A stretch of DNA of 41,394 nt, taken from Thermoproteota archaeon (GTDB lineage: Archaea > Korarchaeota > Korarchaeia > Korarchaeales > Korarchaeaceae). Numbering within the stretch: position 1 is the first letter of the stretch; every line of letters begins with the position of its first letter. Below, one piece after another: positions 29,830 through 39,625 of the stretch. Both the position numbers and the translations under genes were made by a program. The notes under the pieces were generated by a model. The model did no database searches. It saw nothing but the letters and a program-made list of their open reading frames with translations, and had not been told where the DNA came from. Location of the stretch: NCBI GenBank assembly GCA_027491435.1, contig JAOZFG010000005.1:1-41394 (forward strand), in the 5' to 3' direction.

Positions 29830-29847
29830 TTGTCTCGCGGTTACAAA

Positions 29848-30102
29848 ATGATGCGGATCAGGTTCAAGCTCTTGATGAAGTACAGGGACTTGGTGGGTCA
29901 ACCTGAGGTGGAAGTAGAGGTGCCGGAAGGCTCAACAGTGAGAGAGGCCCTCATCGCATTAGAGGAGAAGTACCCGCAGCTTAAAGGGGTGCACCAGGAT
30001 GAGGGACTCGTCCTTCTCAAAGGGGGCAAGGGAGTAAGCTTGGACGACGTCCTGGAGGGGAAAGAGGAGATCTCCCTGCTCCACTCGATAGGGGGAGGTT
30101 GA
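29848..30102 (+). CDS. MoaD/ThiS-like small sulfur carrier or archaeal modifier
   Basis: The protein has 84 residues with the beta-grasp fold: MMRIRFKLLMKYRDLVGQ, EVEVPEGSTVREALIALEEKYP, and the end SIGGG. The C-terminal Gly-Gly is where MoaD, ThiS and SAMP proteins are adenylated and given sulfur or joined to targets. The ATG at 29848 is preferred to the TTG at 29830, because the TATA box lies at the right distance from it. It shares a transcript with the molybdopterin-type protein that follows, which suits a role in molybdopterin synthesis; it could also serve tRNA thiolation or protein tagging. Confidence 0.85.
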   Translation: MMRIRFKLLMKYRDLVGQPEVEVEVPEGSTVREALIALEEKYPQLKGVHQDEGLVLLKGGKGVSLDDVLEGKEEISLLHSIGGG

Positions 30103-35134: not shown

Positions 35135-35476
35135 TTAGACCCTGAGGAACTTCAACGGGAGCTTGGACCCCTTCCTTCTCGTGTACGGCCTGTTTATTGG
35201 TATCCTTAACTTCCTCTCCTCCTCAGACCTGGGCCTTACTATGCCCAAGTAGACCGCGCAGCTTATGCAGTAGTACCTGGTCTCCAACCTCTTGGATATA
35301 TAGGTGCCCTGCCTCTCCAAGTCCTTACCCAATGAACCTCCTACCGGGGTCACCCACCTGGTGACCTTGACGGCCTTATCAGCTGGGACGGCCCGCCCAC
35401 ACTGGGCGCATTGGACTATCTTCTCGTGTCCGGAATCACCTAACTTCCTACCTCTGTTCTTCCTCTTTTTAGGCAT
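35135..35476 (-). CDS. rps26e: Ribosomal protein eS26
   Basis: This 113-residue basic protein of the small ribosomal subunit begins MPKKRKNRGR and has a zinc ribbon made of CAQCGRAV and YYCISCAVYLG, then the typical RIPINRPY tail region. eS26 is present in eukaryotes and in the TACK archaea, so it is a useful marker here. The end meets polB after eight bases. A TTTTTATTTC box at about 35503-35512 is 27-37 bases before the ATG. Confidence 0.95.
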   Translation of the reverse strand: MPKKRKNRGRKLGDSGHEKIVQCAQCGRAVPADKAVKVTRWVTPVGGSLGKDLERQGTYISKRLETRYYCISCAVYLGIVRPRSEEERKLRIPINRPYTRRKGSKLPLKFLRV

Positions 35477-35620: not shown

Positions 35621-37060
35621 TCAGTATGACCTAGCAATCCAAGCCCTGTGCTTGGCTTCCCTGCCACATACAATGCACTTCTTGCCGCTTCCCTCGTAAT
35701 AGCCCTCTTCGTAACCTAATAGGCCGTATCCAGCCTCTTCCTCCACCTCATGCCCGCACTCATCCAGCCCACACCACGGGAATGAGACCATCTTCTGTGT
35801 GACGTGTTCTTTAACCTCCTCTATCGATTCAGCGTGATATACCCTCTCATTGAAGTAATTCTCAGCCTGCTTCTTCATTGTGTCTTCTATGTCCTCAAAA
35901 AGCTTCTCCAGCTCCTCTTCAAGCTCTGACAGGTTTATCTTCACCCTCTCCCCAGTGTCCCTCCTGGCGACGGTGACGAACTGCTTCTCCGTCTCCTCCC
36001 TTCCAACCTCTATTCTGGCGGGCACTCCCTTCATCTCCCACCTGTAGAACTTGAACCCAGGCCTCTCGTCCTCGTCGTCCAGCACCACCCTGAACCTGGA
36101 GGAAAGCCTCTCGTGCAAAGACTTGGAGAACTCGTTCACCTTGTCCTCGTATCCCTTAGTCGGTATTGGCACTATGACCACCTGAATGGGCGCCAGCTTG
36201 GGGGGTATCTTGAGGCCCCTGTTGTCTCCGTGAATGGAGATCATGGCCGCCAAGGATCTCTCTGAGATCCCGAAGGAAGTGGTGTTGACGTACCTCTTCT
36301 CCCCATTCTGATCCATGTAAACTAGGTCGTAGGTCTTCGCGAATAGGTCCCCGAAGTTTATAGCGCTTCCTAGCTCCAGAGCCTTCCCGTCCGGCATTAT
36401 AGTGACTATATCGTAGTTGTACTTGGCCCCGGGGAAGGTGTCCCAAGGGGGCGTCTTAACTACTATGTAAGGCACCAGCAGCTCATCGTAGAACTTCTTG
36501 TAAATCTCAACTTCAAGATCAACCTGCTTCACCGCATCCTCGTAGGTGGCGTGGAAGGTGTGGCCCTCCTTGAAGAAGACTATCTCTCTAACCCTCAGCA
36601 TAGGCCTGGTGGCTTTGGTCTCGTACCTGTACACGGGCACTATCTGGTAAATCCTCAGGGGCAGGTCCTTGTAGCTGGTTATCCACCTCTTGAGGACCTC
36701 ATACATTATGGCCTCGCTGGTTGGCCTAAGAGCGAGCCTCTCCTGTATCTTCTTCCTTCCTAAAGCAGTTATCCAGAAGATAGAATCTTCAAAACCTTTT
36801 ATGAATCGGAACTCCCTCCCAAGGACGCTTTCTGGAACAACTCCGGGGAAGTAGACCCTCCTATGGCCGGTCTCCCTCAAGAGCCTCTCCATCACGTTCA
36901 TGATGTTCTCCATAAGTTGGTATCCGTAGGGAAGCCACACGTACATCCCCTTGACAGGGTATCTCTCGTCCAGTATCTCGGCCTTGAAGATCACCTCGTC
37001 GAACCACCTTGAAAATTCTACCTCCTTCGGAGTCACTTCAAAGGCCTTCCTTTCCGACAA
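35621..37060 (-). CDS. proS: Prolyl-tRNA synthetase, archaeal/eukaryotic type
   Basis: The 479-residue class II enzyme shows KGMYVWLPYGYQLMENIMN, LRPTSEAIMYEVLKRWI (motif 2 region), KATRPMLRVREIVFFKEGHTFHA, and GDNRGLKIPPKLAPIQVVIV. The C-terminal zinc-like region has PWCGLDECG and KKCIVCGREA, and the chain ends in Tyr, as is usual for the archaeal/eukaryotic form. It starts with TTG; GAGGTGAT six bases before it supports this. A TTTTTAAG box lies near 37095-37105. Confidence 0.95.
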   Translation of the reverse strand: MSERKAFEVTPKEVEFSRWFDEVIFKAEILDERYPVKGMYVWLPYGYQLMENIMNVMERLLRETGHRRVYFPGVVPESVLGREFRFIKGFEDSIFWITALGRKKIQERLALRPTSEAIMYEVLKRWITSYKDLPLRIYQIVPVYRYETKATRPMLRVREIVFFKEGHTFHATYEDAVKQVDLEVEIYKKFYDELLVPYIVVKTPPWDTFPGAKYNYDIVTIMPDGKALELGSAINFGDLFAKTYDLVYMDQNGEKRYVNTTSFGISERSLAAMISIHGDNRGLKIPPKLAPIQVVIVPIPTKGYEDKVNEFSKSLHERLSSRFRVVLDDEDERPGFKFYRWEMKGVPARIEVGREETEKQFVTVARRDTGERVKINLSELEEELEKLFEDIEDTMKKQAENYFNERVYHAESIEEVKEHVTQKMVSFPWCGLDECGHEVEEEAGYGLLGYEEGYYEGSGKKCIVCGREAKHRAWIARSY

Positions 37061-37134: not shown

Positions 37135-37827
37135 TTATCCTGTAAAGGTCCAGGATTCACTGCCTAACCTGTGGATTGCCTTGTAAAAGCTGTACCTCAT
37201 CCCGGGGTTTTCCTTCTCGAGCTCCCAGGCTTTAAGCAGGAAAGTGTCCACAGAGTACTCAGGAACTAGCTCCTTCTCGTAGTTTTTCACAGATAGGTGT
37301 AGGGAGAGTATCTCATCCATGGGTATCTCTGAGAAGGGGGCTACCGCCTTAGTTTCTTTCAAGCTGAGGTAGAGCCTCCCGTTTAACACCAGAATTGAGG
37401 GTCCCAGAAATATGGACCTTAGGTACAGGGCAACCACGTCATCTAAGAGGAGAGGTATCACCGCCTTCTCATACCTGAAGCTCCTTAACGCCTTGATCAG
37501 CCTATCCCACCTGTTCTCGGGACACTTTATCGACTCAGACAGGTTTAGGGGCCCTTCACATCCTTCGAACCTTACCTCCACGTCGAAGTTAGACTCTATC
37601 TCCAGAAACATGTCAGCTAACGTTGACTCGTAGGGCCAGCCCAGGCTAAGGTAGGTTAGACTGTCCACCCTCTCCAGTAACCTGTACTTGCTGATGGTCC
37701 TCCTTATCTTAGTCATCAAAGATTTCCTTAAGCAATCAGCGCAGAGGGCCTCCCCGGAATACTTCCTTATGACTAGGGCCTCCCTACCACATCTGCTACA
37801 TTTATAGCTCTGACTCATCACAAGCAT
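37135..37827 (-). CDS. Ncs6/TtuA-family paralogue that has lost its PP-loop
   Basis: The 230-residue protein has the N-terminal zinc knuckle of tRNA 2-thiolation enzymes (CSRCGREALVIRKYSGEALC...C at 10-32), then KIRRTISKYRLL, which in those enzymes leads into the ATP-binding SGGKDS loop. Here that loop reads SLGWPYEST (61-69), without the Gly-Gly-Lys-Asp. LLLDDVVALYLRSIFLG stands at the place of GHNLDDEAQ, and NPGMRYSFYKAIHRLG at the usual PGT-x-FS helix. The C-terminal zinc finger is absent. Eukaryotes have a similar inactive partner, Ncs2/Ctu2. A role as structural partner in tRNA thiolation is inference. Confidence 0.75.
   Translation of the reverse strand: MLVMSQSYKCSRCGREALVIRKYSGEALCADCLRKSLMTKIRRTISKYRLLERVDSLTYLSLGWPYESTLADMFLEIESNFDVEVRFEGCEGPLNLSESIKCPENRWDRLIKALRSFRYEKAVIPLLLDDVVALYLRSIFLGPSILVLNGRLYLSLKETKAVAPFSEIPMDEILSLHLSVKNYEKELVPEYSVDTFLLKAWELEKENPGMRYSFYKAIHRLGSESWTFTG
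37799..37807 (+). promoter_or_regulatory. TATA box of the nucleotidyltransferase gene at 37830
   Basis: CATTTATAG (TTTATA at 37801-37806) lies 23-31 bases before the ATG at 37830. It is inside the 5' end of the divergent Ncs6-like gene, whose ATG is only two bases away from that of its neighbour. Confidence 0.5.
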
Positions 37828-37829
37828 GG

Positions 37830-38543
37830 ATGGATCACCAATTGATAGGCATTTCCCCCGAGAGGGAGGTTATCTACAACAAAGAGAGGTGGAGAATACT
37901 CTCAGTTAAGAGGGACAGAGCTAGGGCATTACTGGAGCATTTGGCCTCCCACGGGATAATAGGCTTCATTTACGGTAGCGTGGCCAGGGGAGACGTTAGG
38001 GAAAAGAGCGACGTAGACGTTATTGTACTAAACCCTCCAACCCCCCTATCTCTGATAGATGAGGTGCTATCGCGATTCGAGCAACCTGTGAGGAGAGAGA
38101 TAGTACAGGCCACTCCCAGGAGCACGCCCAAGTATTACCTTCACCTCAGTCAAGAGACAGTAGTGTCCCTGCCAGTGGGCAGGCTCGGCGAAAGGGAATC
38201 TGACTTTTACAGGTTCGGAGGTATGCTTGACCTAGAAGGTGTGTTGGAAGGTAAGAGGGTCCCAGGAGTCAACAAAGAGCTCAGGCTAATTTACCCTACT
38301 GAAAGAGGTCATCTCGAGTACTCGGTGCCCGGGAACGAGGAGCTAGTGGCCAAGGTGCTTAAGGTGGCTAAGGGAATAGTTGAGGAGAGGGTGAGGGTTC
38401 TCACCAAGAGGAGGATTGTTGGCACAACTGGCCTTTACGTGGACTACGTGCTTCAGATCGACGAGTGCGTAGAGGACGCCATAAGGAGGATAGCCTACAT
38501 GAAAAAGGGGTTCAGGGAAAAAGTCAAGGAGCTTATAAGCTAG
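37830..38543 (+). CDS. Predicted archaeal nucleotidyltransferase
   Basis: The 237-residue protein has the signature FIYGSVARGDVREKSDVDVIVL (GS...DxD, about 48-68), as in MNT proteins, but is longer. The rest has conserved-looking stretches LGERESDFYRFGGMLDL, GKRVPGVNKELRLIYPTERG and GTTGLYVDYVLQIDECVEDAI. It fits an archaeal family of predicted nucleotidyltransferases of unknown substrate. It diverges from the Ncs6-like gene with two bases between the starts, and its end overlaps pelA by four bases on the opposite strand. Confidence 0.8.
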   Translation: MDHQLIGISPEREVIYNKERWRILSVKRDRARALLEHLASHGIIGFIYGSVARGDVREKSDVDVIVLNPPTPLSLIDEVLSRFEQPVRREIVQATPRSTPKYYLHLSQETVVSLPVGRLGERESDFYRFGGMLDLEGVLEGKRVPGVNKELRLIYPTERGHLEYSVPGNEELVAKVLKVAKGIVEERVRVLTKRRIVGTTGLYVDYVLQIDECVEDAIRRIAYMKKGFREKVKELIS

Positions 38544-39625
38544 AGCTCCAAGCTGTACCTCAGTATTGCAGCTATTCCCCCTATGGACTCGAGCTTCTCC
38601 CCGGGCTCGCTCCTCGAATCCACTATGTGAAATTCAGACCTGGTTTTCTCAGCCATCTCAAGTATGGAGAGGATCCTATCCCTGGTCTCCTGATTGAAAA
38701 GCAAGGAACTGCAGACAAGCACCTTCTCAGCGGCTCCCATGTTGACCGCCTGCTCGACCTCGTTAAGCCCGTAGGTGACCAGCTTGGAACCCTTAGCTAA
38801 CAGCTCGAAGACCTCATCTACCAGCTTCATGTGTTTAGTCAGGTCCAGGTCCTTGACAGCCTTGTCAACCTCTCCCCTTTTGACCAGCTCAACAACGCCG
38901 CTCATGGTGGCGTTTGAGGTTGTGGTCACCCTAATGCTCTTGGTGAGTTCTGAGTGCCTCTCCTGGACGTACTTGTAGAACTTGTCTTTCATGAAGCCAG
39001 GCCCCCCCACTATGACCACTTGAGCCCCAGACCTTCCCTTCAGGTCCTCTAGCGTCTTTGCTAGGTCGGAGAAGTACCTCCTCTCCTCACCCTCCCTGTC
39101 ACTCCTCTCCGCCCTCTTTGATGAGAGGCCTGACCTTATGTACATGACCTCGGAGAGGTTGTAATTGTCCAGCTCAGCGACGGTTGCGCCCTCGTCGTCC
39201 ATGGAGACCAGTATCGCCTTGGCCTTTGTTGAGGACTCCACAGCCCTCCTTATTATCTCAAGGTGGGACCTCCTCCAGTTCTTCTTCCAGATCTTGACGG
39301 TGGAGCCTACGTCCACGTTAAGGGTGTGGTGTTGTCCCTGTATGCCGAACTTCTCAGGCCCTATCCTAACCACCCCGGTCAACCTCAGCCTAGAGGAGTA
39401 CTCGTCCAGCTTGACCTTCTCGACTTCGACTGTCAGAGTCATGGGCAGCCTTTCTCCGCTGTCAGCTCTGCCCCCTTCCCTCTTCACCCTCCTGGTGGTC
39501 CTCATGGTTACCCAGTCTCCAGGCTCGATTATAGAGAGGAGCCAGTAGAGGTCCTCCAGCCTCTCAACTTTTAGGGCTATGAACCCCTTCTTGACGTCTT
39601 CCTCAATTACCCTCGTGGGGTTCAC
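38540..39625 (-). CDS. pelA: Pelota, ribosome rescue factor
   Basis: The 361-residue protein resembles release factor 1 without its GGQ loop. It has the Sm-like N-terminal domain (FIALKVERLEDLYWLLSIIEPGD), the central domain (KAKAILVSMDDEGATVAELD, VVIVGGPGFMKDKFYKYV) and a C-terminal domain with KLVTYGLNEVEQAVNMGAAEKVLV. With aRF1-type partners and ABCE1 it frees stalled ribosomes. The GTG start overlaps the TGA of dnaG in a GTGA, so the two are translated together. Confidence 0.95.
   Translation of the reverse strand: MNPTRVIEEDVKKGFIALKVERLEDLYWLLSIIEPGDWVTMRTTRRVKREGGRADSGERLPMTLTVEVEKVKLDEYSSRLRLTGVVRIGPEKFGIQGQHHTLNVDVGSTVKIWKKNWRRSHLEIIRRAVESSTKAKAILVSMDDEGATVAELDNYNLSEVMYIRSGLSSKRAERSDREGEERRYFSDLAKTLEDLKGRSGAQVVIVGGPGFMKDKFYKYVQERHSELTKSIRVTTTSNATMSGVVELVKRGEVDKAVKDLDLTKHMKLVDEVFELLAKGSKLVTYGLNEVEQAVNMGAAEKVLVCSSLLFNQETRDRILSILEMAEKTRSEFHIVDSRSEPGEKLESIGGIAAILRYSLEL

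Follow-up and report, generated by a model that had tools for sequence, protein, structure and literature searches.

A conserved PP-loop-less paralogue of NcsA/TtuA in korarchaea and crenarchaea, a candidate non-catalytic subunit of archaeal tRNA thiolases

The tRNA thiolases of archaea are described as single homodimeric enzymes, the pair of an active and an inactive subunit being assigned to eukaryotes and to a later stage (PMC10067955 and PMC12645042, the latter dealing with Urm1 of Sulfolobus acidocaldarius; papers to November 2025). NcsA is a homodimer, and a modelled Ctu2 overlays its second protomer; in eukaryotes Ctu2 appears to replace that protomer, having no Fe-S cysteines and keeping the zinc-finger sites (PMC10067955). 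Ncs2 is a non-catalytic partner that is thought to serve as a scaffold or in target specificity (PMC10450187), and recombinant Ctu1/Ctu2 has resisted purification (PMC10067955). In the searches, which covered open-licence papers, the passages found in a 2010 study comparing Ubl and PP-loop genes across archaea do not mention PP-loop-less paralogues.

The window analysed here, a whole stretch of 41,394 nucleotides from a korarchaeal draft assembly, contains on its minus strand (37135..37827) an open reading frame of 230 codons with an ATG start, whose 230-aa product was originally predicted to be a paralogue of Ncs6/TtuA lacking the PP-loop. In profile searches the protein comes out as a member of the NcsA/TtuA family. 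Its N-terminus exceeds the cut-off of Pfam TtuA_LIM_N (PF22082; 31.4 bits, cut-off 27 bits, E 2e-7), and phmmer aligns it with MmNcsA from M. maripaludis (6scy) over two collinear stretches, residues 8-55 and 128-221 (E 1.1e-8). A profile of 22 orthologues (family A1) retrieves PhTtuA from P. horikoshii (2.7e-13) and MmNcsA (6e-13) from the PDB, and hhalign joins it to the canonical NcsA/TtuA enzymes over 204 columns (E 3.7e-27). The AlphaFold2 model of the protein (pLDDT 83, pTM 0.83) gives NcsA/TtuA structures as all of its top 17 matches in a PDB fold search, followed by TilS; the TM-score against NcsA is about 0.6 with a high rmsd, which is a partial fold match, and the predicted fold is related to that of NcsA/TtuA but diverged.

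Two conserved elements are retained as originally proposed. The N-terminal zinc knuckle C10-x2-C13 ... C29-x2-C32 (37732..37800, minus strand; Pfam and alignment) is invariant in the family, its four Cys residues being present in all 22 aligned sequences of family A1, and it is followed by the RRTISKY helix common to canonical NcsA (residues 42-48, 37684..37704, minus strand; alignment). The catalytic features are a different matter, and the alignment bears out each of the substitutions that had been pointed to. SLGWPYEST (residues 61-69, 37621..37647, minus strand) stands at the site of the lost SGGKDS-type PP-loop; PLLLDD (residues 125-130, 37438..37455, minus strand) replaces GHNLDD, so that the GHN is gone and the LDD retained, as it is in most korarchaeal members; and the protein stops before the second, C-terminal zinc finger. 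The Asp and the final Ser of the PP-loop each occur in none of 12 korarchaeal members and in 65 of 65 canonical rows of the alignment, in which all 12 korarchaeal members have the four N-terminal Cys. Two further losses escaped the original prediction. One concerns the ligands of the [4Fe-4S] cluster, namely the CxxC and a third cysteine; the other takes several tens of residues out of the part that joins the PP-loop region to the LDD region. The catalytic losses are fixed throughout the family. Judging by these motifs, the protein would be unable to bind ATP in the manner of the family or to hold an Fe-S cluster. It scores only 24.1 bits with the NCBIfam NcsA equivalog against a cut-off of 500 bits, a threshold that does not discriminate since the PP-loop paralogues of korarchaeal genomes also fall below it.

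Full-length orthologues are present in 22 of the 24 genomes of family f1, which we call korarchaeal from its named relative Candidatus Methanodesulfokora, a korarchaeote; the two genomes without an orthologue are 63% and 71% complete. Pairwise dN/dS among orthologues is mostly 0.08-0.25 where dS is usable, and a single very close pair with 0.85 (dS 0.03) has changed too little to count; the gene is under purifying selection. Its surroundings are equally stable, and the gene order holds even where the PP-loop-less protein is only about 29% identical. A divergent gene for a nucleotidyltransferase-domain protein (37830..38543, plus strand; Pfam NTP_transf_2), whose start codon lies 3 bp from that of the PP-loop-less gene in the window, adjoins it in all 19 loci examined, with pelota (aPelota; 38540..39625, minus strand; Pfam eRF1_1/2/3) beyond. 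On the other side, in the window 74 bp downstream and on the same strand, lies the prolyl-tRNA synthetase gene proS (35621..37060, minus strand; Pfam), found there in 18 of 19 loci, L064 being the exception; the gene for ribosomal protein eS26 (35135..35476, minus strand; Pfam PF01283, 1.4e-26) is near in every examined locus except L054, whose contig stops within proS. That the gene is a duplicate in decay or an artefact of assembly, as the disappearance of all catalytic motifs and a draft assembly of 43 contigs might lead one to suppose, is hardly credible: it is intact in 22 genomes, the single-contig G009 among them, at a fixed locus and under purifying selection, and we regard this explanation as refuted by the conservation and the dN/dS values.

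Two other features of these regions may be recorded. A family B DNA polymerase is encoded beside the locus; compared with the one in the window, it has 54-62% identity in most other korarchaea listed and about 30-34% in L029, L063, L065 and L295, where it is possibly of a different PolB type. At 167-902 the window has two small overlapping ORFs, the second nucleotidyltransferase-like (GSVLRGNYGPQSDIDVAV), which by eye could form a HEPN/MNT pair.

The genome of the window encodes two PP-loop paralogues, one of 323 aa that is NcsA-like and gives 199 bits with the NcsA model, the other of 300 aa; the same two-paralogue set is carried by most of the other korarchaeal genomes checked, complete ones having both. 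Neither of the two results named beforehand as refuting the original prediction, a placement outside the Ncs6/TtuA family or the lack of any PP-loop paralogue, was obtained. A PP-loop paralogue is present in every checked genome that has the PP-loop-less gene, with one paralogue match only in some crenarchaeal genomes. The PP-loop-less gene and ncsA are not adjacent, lying about 22-25 kb apart in several korarchaea. As for the sulfur-carrier genes, an E1-like ThiF enzyme for a ubiquitin-like sulfur carrier is found in seven of seven genomes tested, and a ThiS-family protein is encoded in the window itself (29830-30102).

The PP-loop-less proteins are more widespread than the original prediction had it, extending beyond korarchaea to most crenarchaea searched. 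They occur in all 31 genomes sampled from family f76, in most f54 genomes and in members of f98, f155, f156, f157, f158, f160 and f62. In one f76 member the thermosome subunit encoded beside the PP-loop-less gene has as its closest PDB entries 3j1b and 4xcg, which we take to be Acidianus and Saccharolobus chaperonins; f76 is therefore read as Sulfolobaceae. Aeropyrum/Ignisphaera-type crenarchaea are among the carriers, f54 including an Aeropyrum-like and f156 an Ignisphaera-like genome. The crenarchaeal proteins are L124, L131, L200-L229, L230-L259 and L260-L279, except that L275 is a PP-loop protein. The model of a Sulfolobaceae-like member (pLDDT 91) has NcsA/TtuA as all 17 of its significant PDB matches, and no family dedicated to the PP-loop-less proteins came up in the Pfam and NCBIfam searches.

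The crenarchaeal gene lies near a thermosome gene in f54, f76, f98, f156 and f160. A Lys-rich protein, in some cases with an MPRKK-type start, is encoded next to it or one gene away (L282 9112-9930, L283 9386-10258, L289 7980-8774), and the two such neighbours tested have no Pfam match. Such surroundings bear on the idea that the protein descends from a thiolase but now acts on its own, in RNA binding or regulation; it would have kept a zinc knuckle and an RNA-binding surface and given up the thiolase partnership, its korarchaeal neighbours suggesting a role in translation or ribosome quality control. The order with proS, eS26 and pelota conserved in korarchaea, the crenarchaeal neighbours (a thermosome gene and the gene for the uncharacterised Lys-rich protein) and, in korarchaea, the missing C-terminal zinc finger and shortened catalytic domain would all fit. 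However, with different contexts in korarchaea and crenarchaea, neither is much of a guide to function, and the neighbourhood was dropped as such a guide; moreover, the PP-loop-less genes are always accompanied by PP-loop paralogues in the checked genomes, although such paralogues are widespread in archaea. We consider a free-standing role unlikely, while giving it real weight.

A few genomes of Loki-like or DPANN-like type also encode paralogues with degenerate loops (SGDKNS, SGSKNS, SGCRDS, SGDVKS). A scan of Asgard-like genomes with the PP-loop-less profile gave, among the matches read, mostly canonical PP-loop proteins and three Loki-like NcsA paralogues (L307, L332 and L333) that have a degenerate loop (SGDKNS, SGSKNS) and no CxxC; the fragment L342 starts past the PP-loop position, so its loop state is not readable. 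The Asgard label is itself derived from weak profilin matches in two members and from f57 proteins similar to a named Lokiarchaeote sequence (L083). The DPANN-like L127, L128, L133 and L141 are short PP-loop-degenerate paralogues of 191-239 aa. To go by these loops, the Loki-like and DPANN-like paralogues suggest that the PP-loop was lost more than once.

Within Thermoproteota, the korarchaeal and Sulfolobaceae-like PP-loop-less profiles align over 197 columns (E 2.2e-18); the Sulfolobaceae-like profile aligns with the canonical enzymes over 83 N-terminal columns only (2.2e-9). In a tree with the active-site columns masked, the korarchaeal and crenarchaeal PP-loop-less proteins fall on one side of a branch with an SH-aLRT of 99, a grouping that could also arise spuriously from long branches and common relaxation. 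The tree and the comparisons cover archaeal sequences. The data do not reject an alternative nesting of the korarchaeal proteins with NcsA of Bathyarchaea (p-AU 0.44), for which reason a single origin is favoured and not claimed: the preferred, though unproven, history has one ancient origin in Thermoproteota and independent losses in the Loki-like and DPANN-like lineages.

Were the protein a pseudo-subunit of TtuA and not of NcsA, it would support the formation of m5s2U54 in the T-arm through the 300-aa paralogue (G000:C35:18591-19460), which scores 147.5 bits with the TtuA model and 107.3 bits with the NcsA model. The genome does encode both active paralogues, and the PP-loop-less N-terminus scores with NcsA and TtuA models alike. 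On the other hand, the best scores of the A1 profile among canonical proteins are on Bathyarchaeal NcsA-type sequences, grouping the PP-loop-less proteins with the NcsA-type subset increases the likelihood by 3.7, which is not significant, and some crenarchaeal genomes have, as noted above, a single paralogue match. We consider a partnership with TtuA improbable.

The original prediction had also described the protein as an Ncs2-like pseudoenzyme, a description that holds as an analogy. The CTU2 model PF10288 does not appear in the listed families of the window protein (E up to 10) or of 25 PP-loop-less proteins (E up to 1), and finds nothing over the cut-off in 61 archaea or in 148 Asgard-like genomes; many of its weak matches in the relatives and in these Asgard-like genomes are on frames of 300-340 aa, the size of a PP-loop NcsA. 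As PF10288 gives no match, the window protein has no second zinc finger and the comparison covers archaeal sequences, neither membership in Ncs2 nor orthology with it is claimed.

We propose, as the simplest and somewhat favoured reading and by analogy with Ncs2/Ctu2, that the protein is a pseudo-subunit of a heterodimeric archaeal 2-thiouridine tRNA thiolase with a structural, tRNA-positioning role. Duplication of an NcsA/Ncs6-type enzyme would have given rise to the PP-loop-less gene, whose product has lost the ATP-binding PP-loop and the [4Fe-4S] site, in the korarchaeal form also the C-terminal zinc finger, and has kept the N-terminal zinc knuckle and the core fold. Such a protein may take the place of one protomer of the NcsA homodimer; in the resulting heterodimer the PP-loop partner, most likely G000:C16:74578-75459, would adenylate and thiolate the uridine, and the dead subunit would position the anticodon arm of the tRNA and stabilise the complex, as is thought for Ncs2/Ctu2 with Ncs6/Ctu1. 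The protein would accordingly dimerise with NcsA, bind tRNA and be needed for s2U34. Counting against this proposal are the location of the gene apart from ncsA and, in crenarchaea, by a thermosome gene, the absence from the korarchaeal form of the second zinc finger and some of the catalytic domain, and the TM-score of 0.6; the protein could instead pair with TtuA or act alone.

The conservation of a PP-loop-less paralogue in korarchaea as well as in crenarchaea of Sulfolobaceae-like and other types puts the simple homodimer picture in doubt, and a two-part tRNA thiolase of an active and a dead subunit, known only from eukaryotes, may exist in archaea too. It is conceivable, though we put it somewhat short of an even chance, that an Ncs2-like subunit without PP-loop was ancestral in Thermoproteota (korarchaea and crenarchaea), with heterodimeric active/inactive thiolases in use; the transition from homodimer to heterodimer would then not be a eukaryotic invention, the heterodimer being either older than eukaryotes or a repeated development within archaea. 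Some of the lineages with the PP-loop-less protein are culturable and genetically tractable, which makes the inactive half of a thiolase directly testable outside eukaryotes.

The archaeal alpha2beta2 tRNA splicing endonuclease offers a precedent, a homomeric tRNA enzyme having been duplicated there to give a catalytic and a structural subunit, although the endonuclease is unrelated to the thiolases and korarchaea are said to have homomeric types (PMC4090602). With the archaeal [4Fe-4S] tRNA 2-thiolases NcsA (Ncs6) and TtuA (6scy, 5mko, 5gha) the window protein shares the zinc knuckle, the core fold and the order of elements; it differs from them in having no PP-loop, Fe-S cysteines, GHN or C-terminal zinc finger and in being shorter (230 residues, against about 310 in those enzymes). 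Ncs2/Ctu2 of eukaryotes is likewise catalytically deficient and without Fe-S cysteines, stands beside an active paralogue and keeps the N-terminal zinc finger. Ctu2 keeps both zinc-finger sites, whereas the korarchaeal rows of the alignment have the N-terminal one only; both sites are kept in all nine Sulfolobaceae-like rows and in 11 of 13 f54 rows.
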